NCBI GenBank assembly: GCA_020631235.1
Contig: JAHDHQ010000004.1
Coordinates: 1-64,000, forward strand
Direction: 5' to 3'
Source of the DNA: Saprospiraceae bacterium
GTDB taxonomy: Bacteria > Bacteroidota > Bacteroidia > Chitinophagales > Saprospiraceae
DNA length: 64,000 nucleotides
Positions 1,475 to 9,265 of the stretch are shown piece after piece. The notes beneath the pieces are model-generated. The model had not been told where the DNA came from. It saw only the letters and a list, made by a program, of their open reading frames with translations, and made no database searches. Every line of letters starts with the position of its first letter. The first letter of the stretch is position 1. The position numbers were made by a program, and so were the translations under genes.

Positions 1475-2884
1475 TTAAGAAAACATTTGTAGAGGTCCAT
1501 CTTCATTAGGTATCCAAAAGTTGCCTATGTTAGGAAGGATTTGATATAAATCTGAAGCCGATGCTCCGAACCAAAGGGCTAACTCAGCAAAGTACTCATC
1601 ACAAGAGGTCGTCGGTATCAATCGACCACTACCTATATCTTGGTCATTGCCTAAATATAAATCTGGATAGGTGCCAAAGATTTGTTTTCCCTTAACACCT
1701 CCACCAAAAACAAAACTATTACCTCCCCAAGCATGATCGGAACCATCTCCATTTGAAGTTAATTTTCTTCCAAAGTCTGACATGGTGAAGCCTAAAACAT
1801 CATCTTCCACGCCAAGTTCTATCATAGCTTCTCTAAATGAGCCGATAGCCGCATCTAACTGGGATAATAAAGCTGCATGATTTTCCAGCATATCATCATG
1901 CGTGTCCCAACCACCTAGTTCGACAAAAAACGTTTGATTATTGACACCTAAAATATCTCGTGCAGCGATGGTTTTTGCAATCATCAACAATCTTTGAGAA
2001 AAATTATCTTCACCAAACTCGGTGTTGATTTCCATTCCTGAAGCTATGGCATTACTAAACTCAAATGAAGCGACATTCGAATTGACGACTGTATTAGAAT
2101 AGGCTGTTTTTAATATATTATGATAGGTATCGTCTAACATATTATCGAGCGTCTGTCTTTTTAATGTTTCGTACAAGCTATTGCTTTCTATCCCGTTTAA
2201 TAGGACGCTTCCAGTATTTTCGAATCCGATAGCATACTCTTGGATCACATTTCCTTTTTGGAAAAGATTGACACCATTGAGTGAAATGTTCATGGAGATA
2301 TCTTGATTAGCATTATTTGTATACAATATATCAGCCATTCTCCCACCCCATCCTAAGGCATTGATATCTTGCGGTACGCTCGTTTGCCAATGCTTCCGCT
2401 GATCTAAATGAGAAAACAAAGCAAATGGCAAATTCCTATCATTAAAATAATCATTAACTGTAGTCGGCTCCACTAGAGCACCCACATTTGCCACAAATGC
2501 AGCATTGCCTTCTTCGAACAAGTTTTGCAGATTAATCAGTGAAGGATGAAGGCCATATTCCTTATTACTGATATTTGTCGGATTTATGGGCAAAAGTGAT
2601 TCCCTTGGAATGGATAAATCTGTCCGTATACCAGCATACTCTTGATATTCACTTTGTCCCCTTGGTATCAAGGTATTAAAACTATCATTTCCACCCGATA
2701 GCATAATACAAACTAATCCTTTATAGCCACTAGAACCATTTATGGACCTATTAGCTGCCGCCGCGGCATTCATTAATCCAAGGTTAGTAATCCCAGAATA
2801 CAAAGGAGTCAGTCCTAATGACGCGCAGCCTACGGATAATGAGCCTAAAAATTTCCTTCTTGTTAATTTATGATGATGTGACAT
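1475..2884 (-). CDS. DUF1501 family exported protein
   Basis: 469 residues, the usual length for DUF1501 proteins, which are distantly related to sulfatases/alkaline phosphatase-like enzymes and have unknown substrates. The N-terminus carries a twin-arginine signal (LTRRKFLGSLSVGCASLGL), so it is probably exported folded. Family-typical segments are visible: LVCIMLSGGNDSFNTLIP near residue 57, ELGGWDTHDDM around 320, and TMSDFGRKLTSNGDGSDHAWGG, a motif with likely metal-ligand Asp and His, around 370. It lies 42 bases after the DUF1800 gene and 17 bases before the cytochrome/MopE gene. DUF1800 and DUF1501 genes are very often paired. The reaction is unknown; the family assignment is firm. Confidence 0.9.
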   Translation of the reverse strand: MSHHHKLTRRKFLGSLSVGCASLGLTPLYSGITNLGLMNAAAAANRSINGSSGYKGLVCIMLSGGNDSFNTLIPRGQSEYQEYAGIRTDLSIPRESLLPINPTNISNKEYGLHPSLINLQNLFEEGNAAFVANVGALVEPTTVNDYFNDRNLPFALFSHLDQRKHWQTSVPQDINALGWGGRMADILYTNNANQDISMNISLNGVNLFQKGNVIQEYAIGFENTGSVLLNGIESNSLYETLKRQTLDNMLDDTYHNILKTAYSNTVVNSNVASFEFSNAIASGMEINTEFGEDNFSQRLLMIAKTIAARDILGVNNQTFFVELGGWDTHDDMLENHAALLSQLDAAIGSFREAMIELGVEDDVLGFTMSDFGRKLTSNGDGSDHAWGGNSFVFGGGVKGKQIFGTYPDLYLGNDQDIGSGRLIPTTSCDEYFAELALWFGASASDLYQILPNIGNFWIPNEDGPLQMFS

Positions 2885-2926
2885 TCTTCTAGTTTTAAAT
2901 GCAATGAAATTTCTATGTATGTACTT

Positions 2927-4768
2927 TTATTCTAGAATAACAAAGTCAGGTGAAACCATTATAAAATATAAGGCAGACTCTACTATCTCTTTGCTGGAAA
3001 AGCCAATATCATTCTTGTATTGTTCCAATGTCGATTGTATTGTGTTGTGATTTTTTTCGCTTAAACGGCCATGGCATAAGATCAAACTCAAGCGATCAAG
3101 CAAGGCCGAAATACCTTCATTTTCCAACAATTCGATTTCCTCGTCGAAATTTAGAAATGGATTATCATCAGTATTATATCTTAACCTGGGATTATTATTA
3201 TTTACTCTAGTACGGTTTGGAAATGGTGTTTCTTGCAATCCAGTTTCCATGAAGTTTAAGTAGTTTATGGCAGTTACTGCATGGAGTACTTGGAATTCTG
3301 GAGATACCATATCATTAGGCGCTACATATTCGTCTTCAGCGTAGAAAGGTGTCCAGAAATTAAAAACGGTAGGAGAAGCCATAAATGCTTGCCCCAAATT
3401 TGATCGAATGAGTTCAGTGTCATTAAACCAAAGATTTCCACTCGGGCTATCAATATCAAATGCTCGAAATAATTGAGTTAGGCGTTCGATGGGTTGTTTA
3501 AGTTTTCCTGTACTAGGATCATCCAACCATGCACAATCTCTTGCTTCTGGATCTAAGAGGACTGCTCTAAATACTGCCGCCATATCTCCTCTAACACCTT
3601 GTCCATTATTGTTAAAAGCTGTAGCTACTCGCTTGATATATGCCGGACTAGGATTGGATTTTACCATTTGCTGAATTAATCGAAAAGCCAAAAATGGTCC
3701 AACGTTAGGATGATTAAACAGTACATCTAAGGCCATTTGGATATCTTGTATTCCTGGTTGTCCTGCGGGGATTATAGTGCCGTCAATCATTACTTTTTCT
3801 CCCTGATCATGATATTCTTCATACATCATCATAGGCACCGTGATATCGTAAACGCGTAAAGGTCTATTAAACCGTACTGCTTGTCCAGCTAAATCTGGGT
3901 ATTCTTCTAGATTATAGGCTCCTCCAGATAATCCGGTAAAAACCTTGGCTAATTCTTGAATATCTTCAATGTCATAAGTTGGTATTCGTTCTCCATTATT
4001 ATCTAATTTATAGGAGCCATCAATGTTTAATTCAAACAAACCGATGCTAAACAATTGCATAATTTCTCTTGCATAGTTTTCATCCGGCAGGGTGCCCAAT
4101 TCAGGGTCTCCCTTTTCGTTTTGAAGATGGCTTAGGTAATAGCCCATCATGGTATGTAGGCTGACAGACTCTAACATATCTCTAAAATTGCCAAAGGCGC
4201 CTTCACGAAGTGTGTCAAAATAACTTGCATGACCTTTACTAGCCATACCTAATACAATACTCGATCTAGAAACTACTAATATTTGAAGTAAAGAAAATGC
4301 GGCTTTGGTGCGGAGTACATCTATATCTTTTAAGGCCGCCTCATAAAATATAAAACTAGTGAATTCACCGGGTCTATCCATCACTTGACCTGGATGTACT
4401 GTTTGGATCAATTGGTTAATTTCAGATTCTAGTACATCTAATTTGTCACGATAGCTTGTATAAGGTAAACTCATTTGTTCATCTATCCAAGCTTCTACCC
4501 CTATTTGCGTGACATATTCGATCTCATCGTAATTAGCCCCTAAGCTAGCTTGGCCAAGGAATCTAGAAGCTCCTACTAAATCTGGAAGATAACCCGTACC
4601 ACTCAAAGTATTACTTGCCTCGTTATCTTCTACTTCGGAACTACTGCTGATAGTGACCCCAAGGTCATGTCCTGCTCCAAAATAATCAGGGTAAGTCTGA
4701 CTAAAGAGATGATGACTACCAAATACCAAAGTTATTACAAGGGTAAAATAAATAGGAATATATTTCAT
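2927..4768 (-). CDS. DUF1800 family exported protein
   Basis: 613 residues with a Sec-type signal peptide (MKYIPIYFTLVITLVFGSHHLFSQ). The body is the alpha-helical DUF1800 fold. Characteristic pieces are SRFLGQASLGANYDEIEYV near residue 68, NYAREIMQLFSIG with the conserved ENYARE/LMELF-type block, DIQELAKVFTGLS, and NHPNVGPFLAFRLIQQMVKSNPSPAYIKRV. The family has no proven biochemical role; partners are usually DUF1501 proteins, as here. It is the first gene of the minus-strand run DUF1800, DUF1501, cytochrome/MopE. No clear -7 box was found in the 306 bases upstream. Confidence 0.9.
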   Translation of the reverse strand: MKYIPIYFTLVITLVFGSHHLFSQTYPDYFGAGHDLGVTISSSSEVEDNEASNTLSGTGYLPDLVGASRFLGQASLGANYDEIEYVTQIGVEAWIDEQMSLPYTSYRDKLDVLESEINQLIQTVHPGQVMDRPGEFTSFIFYEAALKDIDVLRTKAAFSLLQILVVSRSSIVLGMASKGHASYFDTLREGAFGNFRDMLESVSLHTMMGYYLSHLQNEKGDPELGTLPDENYAREIMQLFSIGLFELNIDGSYKLDNNGERIPTYDIEDIQELAKVFTGLSGGAYNLEEYPDLAGQAVRFNRPLRVYDITVPMMMYEEYHDQGEKVMIDGTIIPAGQPGIQDIQMALDVLFNHPNVGPFLAFRLIQQMVKSNPSPAYIKRVATAFNNNGQGVRGDMAAVFRAVLLDPEARDCAWLDDPSTGKLKQPIERLTQLFRAFDIDSPSGNLWFNDTELIRSNLGQAFMASPTVFNFWTPFYAEDEYVAPNDMVSPEFQVLHAVTAINYLNFMETGLQETPFPNRTRVNNNNPRLRYNTDDNPFLNFDEEIELLENEGISALLDRLSLILCHGRLSEKNHNTIQSTLEQYKNDIGFSSKEIVESALYFIMVSPDFVILE

Positions 4769-5074
4769 AAAGAATAGTGTCGTTTGTTATTGCACCAACA
4801 TTGGACAATAGAAATAAAAGTGCACTCAAGGCTTAGACTAAAAAAGTAATGGAAGGTTTAACTAATTTAAAAAAAAAGTAAAATTTAATAAGCACATAAT
4901 TCAGTGAATATTAAATCATGGCAAGGATTTTTCAGGTTCTATACTGGATATACTTTGCTACCGTGGAAATTAACGCTTTCAAAAATTCATTTCTAAATCT
5001 ATATGTTATCTTAGGGGACATATGTTAATTGAAACTAACAAACTTTTCTTTTTGTTATAAAAGGATCAGTATGC
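4769..5074. other. Intergenic region between divergent operons, no gene seen
   Basis: 306 AT-rich bases separating the DUF1800 operon (minus) from the ATPase gene (plus). It must hold promoters for both. I found only a weak plus-strand match, TTG at 5029-5031 and TCTTTTTG at 5047-5054, with a 15-base spacer that is shorter than usual. A 36-codon open frame starting at 4918 has no supporting signal. Confidence 0.4.
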
Positions 5075-7660
5075 ATGCGTTTAATCAACTTAATGGTGAA
5101 TACCAGTACAATGAATAAAACCAGTGAAAAAATAGTGAGTCGACTGCTTGAACACATCCAAGTAAAGCATCAAGATTTGACTCAAATCCCGAGCTTTATA
5201 AAACAAGAGACACAATCTTGCATTGATTTTTATAATCAAGACATAGCTCAGTTTCAAGAGGAAGATTCCTTATTAAATCGGTATTATCAATCGGAAATTG
5301 CTTTAGAATTAAAGCAATACCTTTTATTTCTGCGCAATACTTTAATTGAGTGGAATAAAGCTAGTGTTAAACTTGAATCCAAGGGAGTCAATGAGCTTAC
5401 ATTTACTGATTTTAACGTCCAATTACATCGTTCGATTGCCGAAACGAGATCTGAATTATCTAGTATTTTACAAGAAAAAGTTCAGCTTTTTTGCGAAGCA
5501 GACTACAAAGACAAATATAAATATCAAGCGAGCTTAGAGAATGATGCTAGCAGTATTTACAATGATCAATTTGCGACTATAAAAGAACAAGTCCAAGTAT
5601 TACTTAGTAATGAAAAAAAGGCAAAGAAGGTCAATAATCAGTTTAATTATATCAATGCAAAATTAGCTAAGTACTTCGATAACATAGTCAGCTTTATTTC
5701 TAAAATCCAAGATATACCCAGTAAGGAAATTTCACAATTAAACACGAAAGCAGATATAGAAGCATCGCTTATAGAATCACATAAAATCATCGAACAAACC
5801 ATCCACGAACTAAATAAGGATGATTATACGAGTAAGAATTTGCTTGAGTTTATTCAAAATATGGAAGAAATACCACTCATCGTAGATTATGATGGAGGTC
5901 AAGTGATCGAACGAAAATTTAAGCTCAATAGTCAATTAGAACGATGGTTTAATGTAGAAATACTTAGTCTCCACAGTCAACTAAAAAATAAGCTTTTCCT
6001 TTTTACCCAATTAGCAGAAAAAAAACACAGAAACTCATTAGCCAAAATCCATTTAGTCAATAAGGAAAATGAAGTTCAGTATCTAGACGAAATCAAAACT
6101 TTGATGGCGGAGCATTTCGAGGACACTGAAAATTTGCATGCATTACTTAAGCAACAGATAGAAAATAAGAAAAGCAACATTGAACAAACCCTAAATATAA
6201 ATCAGCTATATAATAATAGTGCATGGTTAGATTTAGGTTTACAAAATGCTTTTTCTCAGTTTAAATTAGGCACCGAAGGTGTTTTTAAATATTTATCAGA
6301 CAAATACGAACTTGTCAAAGAGAAGATAAACACATTTAAGGAGAAGAACCTTTATCAAACAAAGGAAAGACTAAATGAATCTATAGTTAGATATATAAGA
6401 GATCGTAGTCTTACACCCAAAGAGCTTTCCTATACTGACATTTTTCTAGATAATATTAATGTGTCCAACTACTATTTAGTGAATCGTAAAAAACAGCTAG
6501 ATAAAATCCAGTATGCTTTTGAGACGTGGCAAGAAGGTTTTGGTATTTCGGCTATTATTACCGGCGCTCCTAACTCTGGGAAAACCACTTTTGTGCAACA
6601 AATTTGTAATGAATTTTGGCCAAAAACGAGTTTTCACCTTGCTCCCAATAGTCAGCAAGTAGTCATGGGTCGAAAATTTAACACGAGCTGCGATCTTGGG
6701 GAAGCGCTCATCGAGATGTCTAAGTCCACTAATACAGATGACTACATTTGTGTAATCATTGATGATCTGGAGTTGTGGCGAGATGAACAAATTTCATTAG
6801 AAGAAAATGTGCAGTCACTCATGCATTTTTACAGCCGCAATAAATCGAATATTTTCTTCATTTGTGTGTTGAATCCCCAATTATTGAGGGCTTTGAATAT
6901 CATTTACGATTTCCAACAAATTTTTACTTATGTCATCGATTTATCGAAGGCTACCGAACAAGAATTTTTAGATTCTACTAGAATACGGCATGAATCGACG
7001 CATAAAAATCTAATCAATAAAGATGGTAGCACTATTTCACAAATAAATTTGAGAAGGAAAGCCCTAAGTATTTTCCACGAAAACCATTTTAACTTAGGGG
7101 CTTCCCTACTAGAATGGGCCAGCAGTGTACATACATCCGATGGTTCCGATGTGATATTTACTAAACACGAATCCGTGGCTCCTTGGCTATTGAGTAGCAA
7201 GTATATTTATATACTCAACTATATTTTACTCCACGGAAGCATTAGTGAAATAGAAATCATTAAGACCTTAACACCTTCTGAGAAAGAGGAAACGAGGGCA
7301 TTTTTAGGAAAGATGTTGATGCTGAAATTGTTAATTCGCGGGGAGGATCAAAAAATCCAACTTAACCCCGTTATCTCGAATGAGATTTATTACCAATTTT
7401 CTTCCATTGCTAATGAAGAGGTATTCTCTTATATCATAAGATCTAATAAAGTCGAAGTAGATTTAATCGATGTAAAACAAAAGGTGGTAAGTTTATTATT
7501 TAGATATCCTTTCGAACTCTTAGACACAAACGTCGAAATAACCATACATACAAAAAGAATGAGCATAGAATTGCGTACAGGTGAAGAGCCTGCCCAAATA
7601 ATTGCTTATTTAAATGACCATTTAGATCAAATAACTTTTGAATTTCTACACAGATTATAA
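5075..7660 (+). CDS. Large coiled-coil P-loop ATPase, STAND/AAA-like, co-transcribed with an antiporter
   Basis: 861 residues; I do not recognise a named family. Residues 1-460 are charged and helical with long coiled-coil stretches. About residues 465-480 (YLVNRKKQLDKI) resemble the N-terminal signature of STAND-type NTPases. Walker A is GAPNSGKT at 497-504; Walker B is CVIIDDLELW with D563 D564. After the ATPase core a segment near 700-760 (HGSISEIEIIKTLTP...) looks like a winged helix. No signal peptide or membrane segment is seen, so it is cytoplasmic. ATG codons at 5075, 5093 and 5111 are all possible starts. The stop is 3 bases before the antiporter start, which indicates one transcript and a functional link. 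A role as regulator of the transporter is my inference. Confidence 0.6.
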   Translation: MRLINLMVNTSTMNKTSEKIVSRLLEHIQVKHQDLTQIPSFIKQETQSCIDFYNQDIAQFQEEDSLLNRYYQSEIALELKQYLLFLRNTLIEWNKASVKLESKGVNELTFTDFNVQLHRSIAETRSELSSILQEKVQLFCEADYKDKYKYQASLENDASSIYNDQFATIKEQVQVLLSNEKKAKKVNNQFNYINAKLAKYFDNIVSFISKIQDIPSKEISQLNTKADIEASLIESHKIIEQTIHELNKDDYTSKNLLEFIQNMEEIPLIVDYDGGQVIERKFKLNSQLERWFNVEILSLHSQLKNKLFLFTQLAEKKHRNSLAKIHLVNKENEVQYLDEIKTLMAEHFEDTENLHALLKQQIENKKSNIEQTLNINQLYNNSAWLDLGLQNAFSQFKLGTEGVFKYLSDKYELVKEKINTFKEKNLYQTKERLNESIVRYIRDRSLTPKELSYTDIFLDNINVSNYYLVNRKKQLDKIQYAFETWQEGFGISAIITGAPNSGKTTFVQQICNEFWPKTSFHLAPNSQQVVMGRKFNTSCDLGEALIEMSKSTNTDDYICVIIDDLELWRDEQISLEENVQSLMHFYSRNKSNIFFICVLNPQLLRALNIIYDFQQIFTYVIDLSKATEQEFLDSTRIRHESTHKNLINKDGSTISQINLRRKALSIFHENHFNLGASLLEWASSVHTSDGSDVIFTKHESVAPWLLSSKYIYILNYILLHGSISEIEIIKTLTPSEKEETRAFLGKMLMLKLLIRGEDQKIQLNPVISNEIYYQFSSIANEEVFSYIIRSNKVEVDLIDVKQKVVSLLFRYPFELLDTNVEITIHTKRMSIELRTGEEPAQIIAYLNDHLDQITFEFLHRL

Positions 7661-7663
7661 ATT

Positions 7664-8950
7664 ATGAATTTATTTTTTTTAGCCGGCGGCTCATTTTTTG
7701 AAGACCCATATAGTTTAATTATAGCGGCATCCGCTATTATTATTTTGTCTTTCTTTTTTAATCAAATATCTAAAAAAACCAATATCCCATCCGTGTTATT
7801 GTTGATTATTCTAGGGATTGTGCTGAAATTTGGTTTGGATGCTTCAGGTGTCGAACATGATTTTTTCCCAACCTTAGAGATTTTGGGTATTGTTGGCTTA
7901 ATTATGATTGTCCTTGAAGCTGCCTTGGAGCTAAAGCTTGAAAAAGAAAAAATGATTCCGATTCTCTTAGCCTTAGGTCTAGCTGTGGTCGGCTTGATAG
8001 CTAGTACATGGATTGCAAAACTTATACTTCAGTATTTTATTTCAGATATCACCAATTTGCAAGCATGGGTTTATGCTACTCCTTTATCCATATTATCTAG
8101 TGCCATCATTATCCCGTCGGTTGCTGATCTAAGGGCAGACAAAAAAGAGTTTCATATTTATGAAAGTACTTTTTCCGATATAATCGGAATTATGATGTTT
8201 TATTACTTACTTGGGAATGTAGATCCTAGTTCTAGCGGTAGTGGGTGGTTAGCCTTTACAGGCAATCTTTTCTTAACTATTTTTATAGCCCTTTTGTCGA
8301 GTTATTTAATCATATTAATATTCCAAAATCTTAAATCGCACGTAAAGCTTTTTCTTTTAATTGCGGTCTTACTATTGCTGTATGCGATTGCCAAGAAATT
8401 TCATTTATCAGCCTTGATAATCATTCTCATTTTTGGATTAGTGATAGCCAATATGAAGTTGTTTTTCCCAGGAAAAATGAAGAAATATTTAAATTATAAA
8501 AAGGCAATCCACATTTATGAGGAGCTACACATTATCACCTTAGAGACAGCCTTTGTGGTGCGCACATTTTTCTTTGTGATCTTTGGTTTAACGATTGTAT
8601 TAAGCACGCTTATGGATTTACAAGTAGCTCTAATCAGTATATTGATTATTGCATCGATCTATATTATCCGATTCGTCATGCTGCGTATAGCTTTTGGAAA
8701 AGATATATTACCACAAATATTTATAGCTCCTCGTGGCCTCATAACGATTTTGTTGTTTTATGCCATTCCGGTAGAATTACAACTAGAATCCTTTAATTCT
8801 GGTATTTTACTATTTGTAATAATTGGGACGAGTTTAATTATGACTGGTGCCATGATCTTTGACAAACGTAGGTCTGAAAAATCCGTTAAAAAAGCAGAGG
8901 CTGTACCAGTAGGCTATCTAAAATGGAAGCCTAAGAGCCTGGAAGAATAA
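7664..8950 (+). CDS. Cation:proton antiporter (CPA superfamily, Na+/H+ exchanger type)
   Basis: 428 residues, almost entirely hydrophobic, with about 12 predicted membrane helices. The opening helix pair (YSLIIAASAIIILSFFFNQISKKTNIPSVLLLIILGIVL) is typical of Na+/H+ exchanger family proteins, including the TNIPSVLLLIILG block. The polar stretch DIIGIMMFYYLLG in the centre matches the ion-binding region of the superfamily. The protein ends with a short charged tail (DKRRSEKSVKKAE...) and lacks the C-terminal TrkA-N/TrkA-C domains seen in KefB-like relatives. The ATPase encoded just upstream might take that regulatory role. The ion specificity cannot be told from sequence. The gene is followed directly by a hairpin repeat array. 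Confidence 0.82.
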   Translation: MNLFFLAGGSFFEDPYSLIIAASAIIILSFFFNQISKKTNIPSVLLLIILGIVLKFGLDASGVEHDFFPTLEILGIVGLIMIVLEAALELKLEKEKMIPILLALGLAVVGLIASTWIAKLILQYFISDITNLQAWVYATPLSILSSAIIIPSVADLRADKKEFHIYESTFSDIIGIMMFYYLLGNVDPSSSGSGWLAFTGNLFLTIFIALLSSYLIILIFQNLKSHVKLFLLIAVLLLLYAIAKKFHLSALIIILIFGLVIANMKLFFPGKMKKYLNYKKAIHIYEELHIITLETAFVVRTFFFVIFGLTIVLSTLMDLQVALISILIIASIYIIRFVMLRIAFGKDILPQIFIAPRGLITILLFYAIPVELQLESFNSGILLFVIIGTSLIMTGAMIFDKRRSEKSVKKAEAVPVGYLKWKPKSLEE

Positions 8951-9265
8951 TCTCGATGAACCTTCGGTTATCGAAGACTCTGTACTCGATGAACCTTCGG
9001 TTATCGAAGACTCTATGCTCGATGAACTATGCTTATCGAAGACATTGCACTCGATGAACTTATGCTTATCGAAGATCTTGCGCTCGATGAACCTATACTC
9101 ATCGAAGAAATTGTACTCGATGAACCTTCGGTTATCGAAGACATCGCCTCTCTGAAACTTTGATGATCAAAAGACTTAATTAATGCTTAATCAAGCTTTG
9201 GTAATCCAACATTTATCTGCCTCCTGAGTAACTTTACCTATAAATCTTAATCAACTTAATCGCCC
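8951..9265. other. Convergent intergenic region filled mostly by a tandem repeat
   Basis: The 3' ends of the antiporter (plus) and isocitrate dehydrogenase (minus) face each other here. About 230 of the 315 bases are the 33-bp repeat array. The rest (9182-9265) is plain AT-rich sequence in which I see neither a gene nor a clear T-tract terminator. Confidence 0.6.
8952..9148. repeat. 33-bp tandem repeat, six units, each an imperfect palindrome
   Basis: Units start at 8952, 8985, 9018, 9050, 9083 and 9116; the third is 32 bp, the others 33. Each unit begins ctcgatgaac and contains the dyad TCGATgAACC-ttc-GGTTATCGA or a variant that keeps TCGAT...ATCGA while the inner stem changes. A decayed seventh unit may span 9149-9181. 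There are no unique spacers, so this is not CRISPR. The array starts one base after the antiporter stop codon, so its RNA would be a string of hairpins at the 3' end of the transcript. Confidence 0.9.

Follow-up and report, generated by a model that had tools for sequence, protein, structure and literature searches.

An AAA+ ATPase and antiporter gene pair in a Saprospiraceae bacterium, possibly a reduced form of a three-part Bacteroidota module

The draft genome of a Saprospiraceae bacterium (Bacteroidota; GenBank assembly GCA_020631235.1, 4.19 Mb in 43 contigs) encodes a large cytosolic ATPase directly beside a cation:proton antiporter, which raises the question of what such an ATPase does next to a secondary ion transporter. 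Both genes are on the forward strand of the window, by which we mean the whole 64,000-nucleotide stretch analyzed (positions 1 to 64,000 of contig JAHDHQ010000004.1). The ATPase gene (5075..7660, ATG start) is an open reading frame (ORF) for 861 amino acids with no transmembrane helix predicted by hydropathy; it has full-length homologs and is single-copy in the genome. After a gap of 3 bases (7661..7663), the antiporter gene (7664..8950, ATG start) encodes 428 amino acids with a Na_H_Exchanger domain (PF00999) of the cation:proton antiporter (CPA) type and 11 transmembrane-like stretches by hydropathy. A reading of the DNA made before this work, here called the original prediction, proposed that a STAND-like ATPase gates ion flux through the antiporter. 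We think that the pair derives by reduction from a Bacteroidota module consisting of a secondary cation transporter, a cytosolic AAA+ ATPase and an MscS-like protein, and that the ATPase switches the transporter; we would give this reading a probability of roughly 0.58.

The two ORFs, their lengths, the positions of the Walker motifs and the 3-base spacing were all as originally described when checked against the sequence. The pair is not a chance neighborhood, because it is kept in a genome of the same genus (G002; 81% and 85% identical, gap likewise of 3 bases) and because the two genes are adjacent in nearly all related loci. The ATPase occurs in 27 of the 119 nearest genomes, and the antiporter is also present in all 27. 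We collected 101 window-type loci with six-frame profiles and counted the 86, from 86 genomes and 45 genera, in which the downstream sequence reaches 2.4 kb or more; 15 shorter ones were dropped, and the family f45 loci and a fragment (L204) were kept out of the tally. In 84 of these 86 the ATPase has the antiporter downstream in the same orientation, which bears out the adjacency that the original prediction had proposed to tabulate. The exceptions are L163 and L218; at L168, L210 and L271 the genes are present by six-frame profiles, and these loci are not exceptions. Another genome of the same genus (G001) lacks both genes. In this empty-site comparison the matches to the flanking genes do not share a contig, and identity in the DUF1800-type match is only 41%.

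Outside the genus of the window, an ORF of about 240 amino acids lies between the two genes, at the site of the 3-base gap, and it encodes an MscS-like protein. The gene is found in 82 of the 86 window-type loci, between ATPase and antiporter, and is absent from the window, L189, L196 and L218. An MS_channel beta-domain is detected in 15 of 24 members at E<=0.05, PF00924 is above its cut-off in L080 and L082, and a profile of the protein matches MscS structures in the PDB (E 6e-5). Foldseek matches its model (pLDDT 88.6) to MscS along 236-238 columns (E 3e-11 to 5e-11); the different arrangement of the domains keeps TM-scores low and the rmsd large. VIA aligns the model to MscS with Z 11.8 over 209 residues, and the C-terminal domain alone also resembles common ferredoxin-like folds (Z ~9). 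The third transmembrane helix (TM3), the beta-domain and the C-terminal domain of the MscS family are all present. The middle protein of these relatives thus matches MscS channels over nearly its full length, but it has 240 amino acids and its gene shares an operon with those of an ATPase and a transporter.

The window locus has no MscS-like ORF between or beside the two genes; pore helices and beta-domain are absent, and what is kept is one fused domain. Most window-type ATPases end with a winged-helix-like domain (residues ~708-775, 7196..7399). The ATPases of the window, of L058 (the locus in G002), of L189 and of L196 extend about 80 residues further, and the MscS-like gene is absent at these loci. 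In the window the extension spans residues 782-861 (7418..7657). Aligned with hhalign to the C-terminal alpha/beta domain of 108 MscS-like proteins, the four extensions give P 9.9e-6 (the best of 20 control slices from the same ATPases gives 2.2e-3). Smaller comparisons were less decisive. Two sequences alone gave 0.14; against 33 MscS-like C-terminal domains the value was 0.0021, with 261 of 5000 shuffles and at least 9 non-self background tails scoring better than the window extension, and 9 of 5000 shuffles better than that of L058. A comparison with only the two nearest MscS-like proteins gave P 0.026, with the 20 controls at 0.17 or worse. The number of single-sequence shuffles out of 3000 that beat the extension was 24 for the window, 10 for L058, 0 for L189 and 283 for L196, and the L196 extension is not convincing as a remnant on its own. 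Since the single-sequence tests are mixed, the case for a remnant rests on the joint profile, L189, the position of the extension and the tree.

In the tree, the four extended ATPases form one clade (support 99). The channel-less form probably arose once, but long-branch attraction of L196 to L058 and the window is a risk in the ATPase tree. A separate clade (L115, L190, L193, L194 and L195) has MscS-like proteins of 174-189 amino acids that have lost the beta-domain and kept the C-terminal domain. Twice, then, pore parts have gone and the C-terminal domain has stayed, suggesting a role for this domain as the coupling element. The best reading of the window lineage is a derived, channel-less form: the greater part of the MscS-like gene has disappeared, and the ATPase has acquired the C-terminal domain of the MscS-like protein by fusion.

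We modeled the ATPase with AlphaFold2 from 26 homologs (mean pLDDT 74.5). The model has a helical N-terminal half, an AAA+ core and a winged helix, with a poorly predicted C-terminus. The first ~450 residues (5075..6424) are nearly all helical, with helices to residue 444, in agreement with the long coiled-coil N-terminus proposed originally. The AAA+ core (residues 459-699, 6449..7171) was placed by VIA-align and Foldseek. VIA-align gives Z 14.6 to NSF D2 (over 459-773/699) and Z 13.4 to archaeal Cdc6/Orc1 (2qby; residues 449-759), the latter with an rmsd of 8.1, so the domain arrangement differs from that of Orc1/Cdc6. Orc/Cdc6 chains are also the top Foldseek matches (best 7tji, E 3e-6). 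The window ATPase scores below the curated Pfam cut-offs for AAA_16 (21.6 vs 32.6 bits) and AAA (19.1 vs 21.2 bits); AAA+ membership therefore rests on fold and motifs. Both Walker motifs sit in an alpha/beta P-loop core, and a winged helix follows this core as in Orc1/Cdc6. The family differs from Orc1/Cdc6 and NSF D2 in its long N-terminal helical stalk, in its linkage or fusion to ion transporters and in the Asp-Asp of its Walker B motif.

Walker A is GAPNSGKT (residues 497-504, 6563..6586) and Walker B is Asp563-Asp564 (6761..6766). Among 172 distinct homologs longer than 600 amino acids, the Walker A lysine (Lys503) is kept in 151, replaced by arginine in 16 and by other residues in 5, and Walker B Asp-Asp is found in 127. 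From these counts we predict that nucleotide binding is general in the family and that hydrolysis is likely but not universal. STAND and NACHT NTPases also have a P-loop with Walker B Asp-Asp and helical and winged-helix parts, as does the window ATPase, but no STAND family matched above its cut-off, and an nSTAND3 match in 1 of the 26 members (E 0.0028) is below usual significance. The original STAND-like label appears to be unsupported, and the modeled fold is of the Orc1/Cdc6/NSF-D2 type. That STAND proteins do not figure in the structural match lists carries no weight against the label. A PDB profile search with the ATPase alignment gave 98 chains at E<=1, of which the 60 listed were mostly haemagglutinin coiled coils matching residues 156-273; we rejected these because of coiled-coil bias. 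Among viral contigs scanned for close ATPase relatives, 14 pattern stretches were seen and none was confirmed.

The antiporter matches PF00999 at 64.2 bits (cut-off 26.2, E 1.2e-17) and no other Pfam family above its cut-off. An alignment of 17 diverse relatives (A4) matches mammalian NHA2 (E 1e-7), placing Ser171-Asp172 (8174..8179) on the Asp-Asp of human/bison-type NHA2; the close alignment (A3) had no match among PDB profiles at E 0.01. CPA antiporters have an ND or DD motif in which the catalytic aspartate is preceded by asparagine or aspartate. Asp172, aligned to the second aspartate of NHA2, is invariant in the 17 diverse antiporters, and the residue before it is a serine, Ser171, invariant in 25 linked antiporters. 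The score for the K+/H+ antiporter NhaP2/CvrA (NCBIfam PRK05326) is 28.3 bits vs a cut-off of 355. The ion and the stoichiometry of the antiporter are not readable from its sequence.

The original prediction also noted that the antiporter lacks the usual regulatory C-terminal domains. Only PF00999 is above cut-off, which agrees, but the absence is not distinctive (stand-alone relatives of 394-467 amino acids likewise have no regulatory domain), and a short conserved tail is present. Linked antiporters end in a short segment with the core VG..xWKAP, which in the window spans residues 401-428 (8864..8947) with the core VPVGYLKWKP, and its Trp421 is invariant in A3. A strict pattern finds the tail in 104 of 149 linked and 0 of 29 unlinked antiporters (rows include duplicates). 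A relaxed pattern finds it in 143 of 149 linked rows; of the six misses, five show a V-R/N-x-V-K-W variant on visual inspection and the sixth is truncated at a contig end. The same pattern finds 1 of 29 unlinked antiporters, a match that looks spurious (0 of 29 by eye). In a midpoint-rooted tree of 122 distinct linked and 29 unlinked antiporters, a clade of 17 unlinked ones at 65-70% identity (Maribacter, Zobellia, Aureibaculum and others) lies within the linked ones (38-row fork, support 98). These 17 have lost the ATPase, the MscS-like gene and the tail together, and we infer a correlated loss of a docking site. At L083, an antiporter 57% identical to that of the window over the core is fused to an Ion_trans channel domain (796 amino acids, 1810-4200), with an adjoining CorA gene (4201-5244).

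Homologs of the ATPase extend to other transporters. Searches found them in 19 of 295 genomes of the class, 155 of 398 of the family and 43 of 296 of the phylum; we examined 79 usable loci from the family, selected for diverged members and different genera, and at the phylum level loci from 20 of the 38 newly matched genomes. Homologs of about 1000 amino acids have an MscS-like gene directly after them in 21 of 21 loci and no co-directional antiporter (L116 has a convergent one). In 14 loci an SLC12-type, K-Cl-cotransporter-like domain is fused N-terminally to the ATPase module, seen with Pfam in the three tested, and an MscS-like gene follows in 12 of 12, the other 2 being on short contigs. 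The fused domain of L202 matches TIGR00930 (K-Cl cotransporter; E 1e-115) at 388 bits, below the cut-off of 953, and it differs from K-Cl cotransporters in its fusion to an AAA+ module with an MscS-like gene after it. CorA adjoins the MscS-like gene or is one gene beyond it in L126, L128, L129 and L130.

A further fusion is found in family f97, where 9 of its 79 genomes (6 genera) have a frame of 1475-1510 residues with an N-terminal Na_H_Exchanger domain and a C-terminal ATPase module, 43-61% identical to that of L355 over the full length. All nine loci (L355, L369-L376) have the fusion, an MscS-like gene, TrkH and a gene for 229-231 amino acids in this order. Pfam confirmed TrkH in two and identified the last gene as TrkA in the two tested. 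The TrkH/TrkA K+ uptake genes, directly after the MscS-like gene here, are absent from the window locus. Because the fused antiporter domains are only 20-21% identical to the antiporter of the window, we read f97 as a separate coupling to a distant antiporter, one that strengthens the association without being orthologous. A functional ATPase and antiporter pair as originally proposed is supported by the window-type adjacency and, with this distance in mind, by the f97 fusions, but it is incomplete, as an MscS-like protein that the window lacks normally completes the system. In L376 a 414-amino-acid upstream gene is a second Na_H_Exchanger, and the 414-amino-acid gene of L355 has no Pfam match. 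The homologs of the f45 loci (L118-L121, L123 and L124) have about 1120 amino acids, and the five with enough downstream sequence lack both the MscS-like gene and the antiporter. At L344, L347, L353 and L356, the four loci of their kind tested, the gene after the MscS-like one is peptidase-M49-like.

We predict that the module works as follows. A dedicated cytosolic ATPase on a long helical stalk would bind, and probably hydrolyze, ATP. It may form a physical complex with the transporter, docking both directly and through the MscS-like C-terminal domain, a coupling that the fusions support, and would turn the transporter on or off. Exchange of K+ (or another monovalent cation) for H+ would then track the energy state of the cell and, where the MscS-like ring is complete, also membrane tension, with the ring as tension sensor or membrane adaptor. 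The window form would be an ATPase and antiporter pair without the tension sensor, in which only the adaptor domain is left. Trk, K-Cl cotransporters and MscS are familiar in turgor control. We propose ATP-dependent control of K+ transport because the recurring partners are K+ carriers (Trk, K-Cl-cotransporter-like proteins and probably the antiporters) and MscS relatives, and the module probably helps cells control salt content and swelling. A broader version, which we hold only tentatively and consider less likely than the module itself, is that AAA+ and MscS-like parts form a general clutch that senses ATP and tension and couples to K+ carriers of unrelated structure (CPA, K-Cl-cotransporter-like, Trk, perhaps CorA). 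It would serve volume control in Bacteroidota, the MscS relative would be a sensor or adaptor and not a valve, and the window would show the adaptor domain surviving pore loss.

Several observations weigh against control of a K+ antiporter by the ATPase. For K+ as the ion of the window antiporter itself, the evidence is a weak match to one NCBIfam model, well short of its cut-off (E 6e-7), and the f97 antiporter domains are the distant ones described above. In five f45 loci the ATPase stands without an MscS-like gene or an antiporter. Hydrolysis may be dispensable, as the Walker A lysine is replaced in 21 of 172 homologs. Antiporters at 65-70% identity occur without the ATPase in 17 of the best 80 named loci (from at least 584 relatives; this set overlaps the other locus set), so the ATPase is not obligatory for the antiporter, and L280 has the MscS-like gene and antiporter with no ATPase detected. 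The original prediction had named homologs widespread without the antiporter as evidence against it. This is half the case, as distant homologs without the antiporter of the window are widespread, but most of those examined have an MscS-like gene, some have another ion transporter and five f45 loci have neither.

The same evidence bears on other explanations. The ATPase could instead be an AAA+ machine for assembly or quality control of the MscS-like and transporter proteins that does not gate transport. Its core is nearest to NSF D2 and the Orc/Cdc6 remodeling ATPases, and strong physical linkage would also suit a dedicated chaperone, but we consider this unlikely, as covalent fusion to three transporter contexts and the TrkH/TrkA operons suit regulation better, and the 17 loci that do without the ATPase and the replaced Walker A lysines also count against it. 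Somewhat less probable is that the ATPase chiefly gates the MscS-like channel for regulated osmolyte release, with the transporters as secondary passengers. The MscS-like gene is the commonest partner across all locus types (82/86, 21/21, 12/12 plus the two short contigs, and 9/9), but two clades lost the pore parts and kept the ATPase, the C-terminal domain and the antiporter, and the window locus has no pore, though four MscS-like genes are found elsewhere in its genome.

A defense or abortive system, with the ATPase as infection sensor and an ion leak as the response, seems improbable. Its distribution in the family is patchy (155/398 genomes) and the ATPase diverges fast (22-28% identity vs 59-70% for the adjacent antiporters), but PADLOC gave only a weak BrxB match (3e-4 over 52 residues, 326-377) and Csx3 at 0.0098 in L202, the TrkH/TrkA context does not suit defense, and the window neighbors look like housekeeping genes. 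Nothing points to the cell-death role suggested originally, and two PADLOC scans were without a convincing match. That the genes are mere neighbors is very unlikely, as 84/86 adjacency over 45 genera and independent fusions far outweigh the absence of the ATPase from 17 of the named loci.

Control of the transporter by the ATPase has a partial parallel in the Kef K+/H+ efflux systems, where a CPA2 antiporter with an RCK domain has a dedicated cytosolic partner, KefF or KefG. If the window ATPase controls its antiporter, both would be monovalent-cation/proton antiporters with a dedicated cytosolic partner, but the partner here is an AAA+ ATPase with an MscS-derived domain and the antiporter has no RCK domain. 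We are aware of no system with a dedicated AAA+ ATPase fused covalently to secondary ion transporters or paired with an MscS relative. In the open literature (subscription papers and preprints were outside the scope), no description of an ATPase, MscS-like and transporter module was found among the matches listed. One such paper, in the portion available, deals with salinity-related gene content and not with this module (PMC10219603). Judged by sequence, all parts come from known families and the kind of assembly is apparently new, because no known system joins an AAA+ ATPase, secondary ion transporters and an MscS relative. If true, the module would tie K+ flux to the energy status of the cell and possibly to turgor, and the two lineages in which pore parts were lost but the same cytosolic domain was retained would be a natural experiment on MscS-fold proteins as adaptors. 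Named carriers in culture (e.g., Gillisia, Algoriphagus, Cellulophaga baltica and Lewinella cohaerens) make the module testable.

Directly after the antiporter stop codon is a repeat with a 33-bp period and six register copies (8952-9158). The unit CGATGAACCTTCGGTTATCGA has three exact copies there and none elsewhere in the window when 3 mismatches are allowed. Upstream of the ATPase, on the opposite strand (1475-4768), are two genes for 469 and 613 amino acids, which we take to be DUF1501/DUF1800-like. The 613-amino-acid gene also adjoins the cassette in G002, where it is 59% identical.

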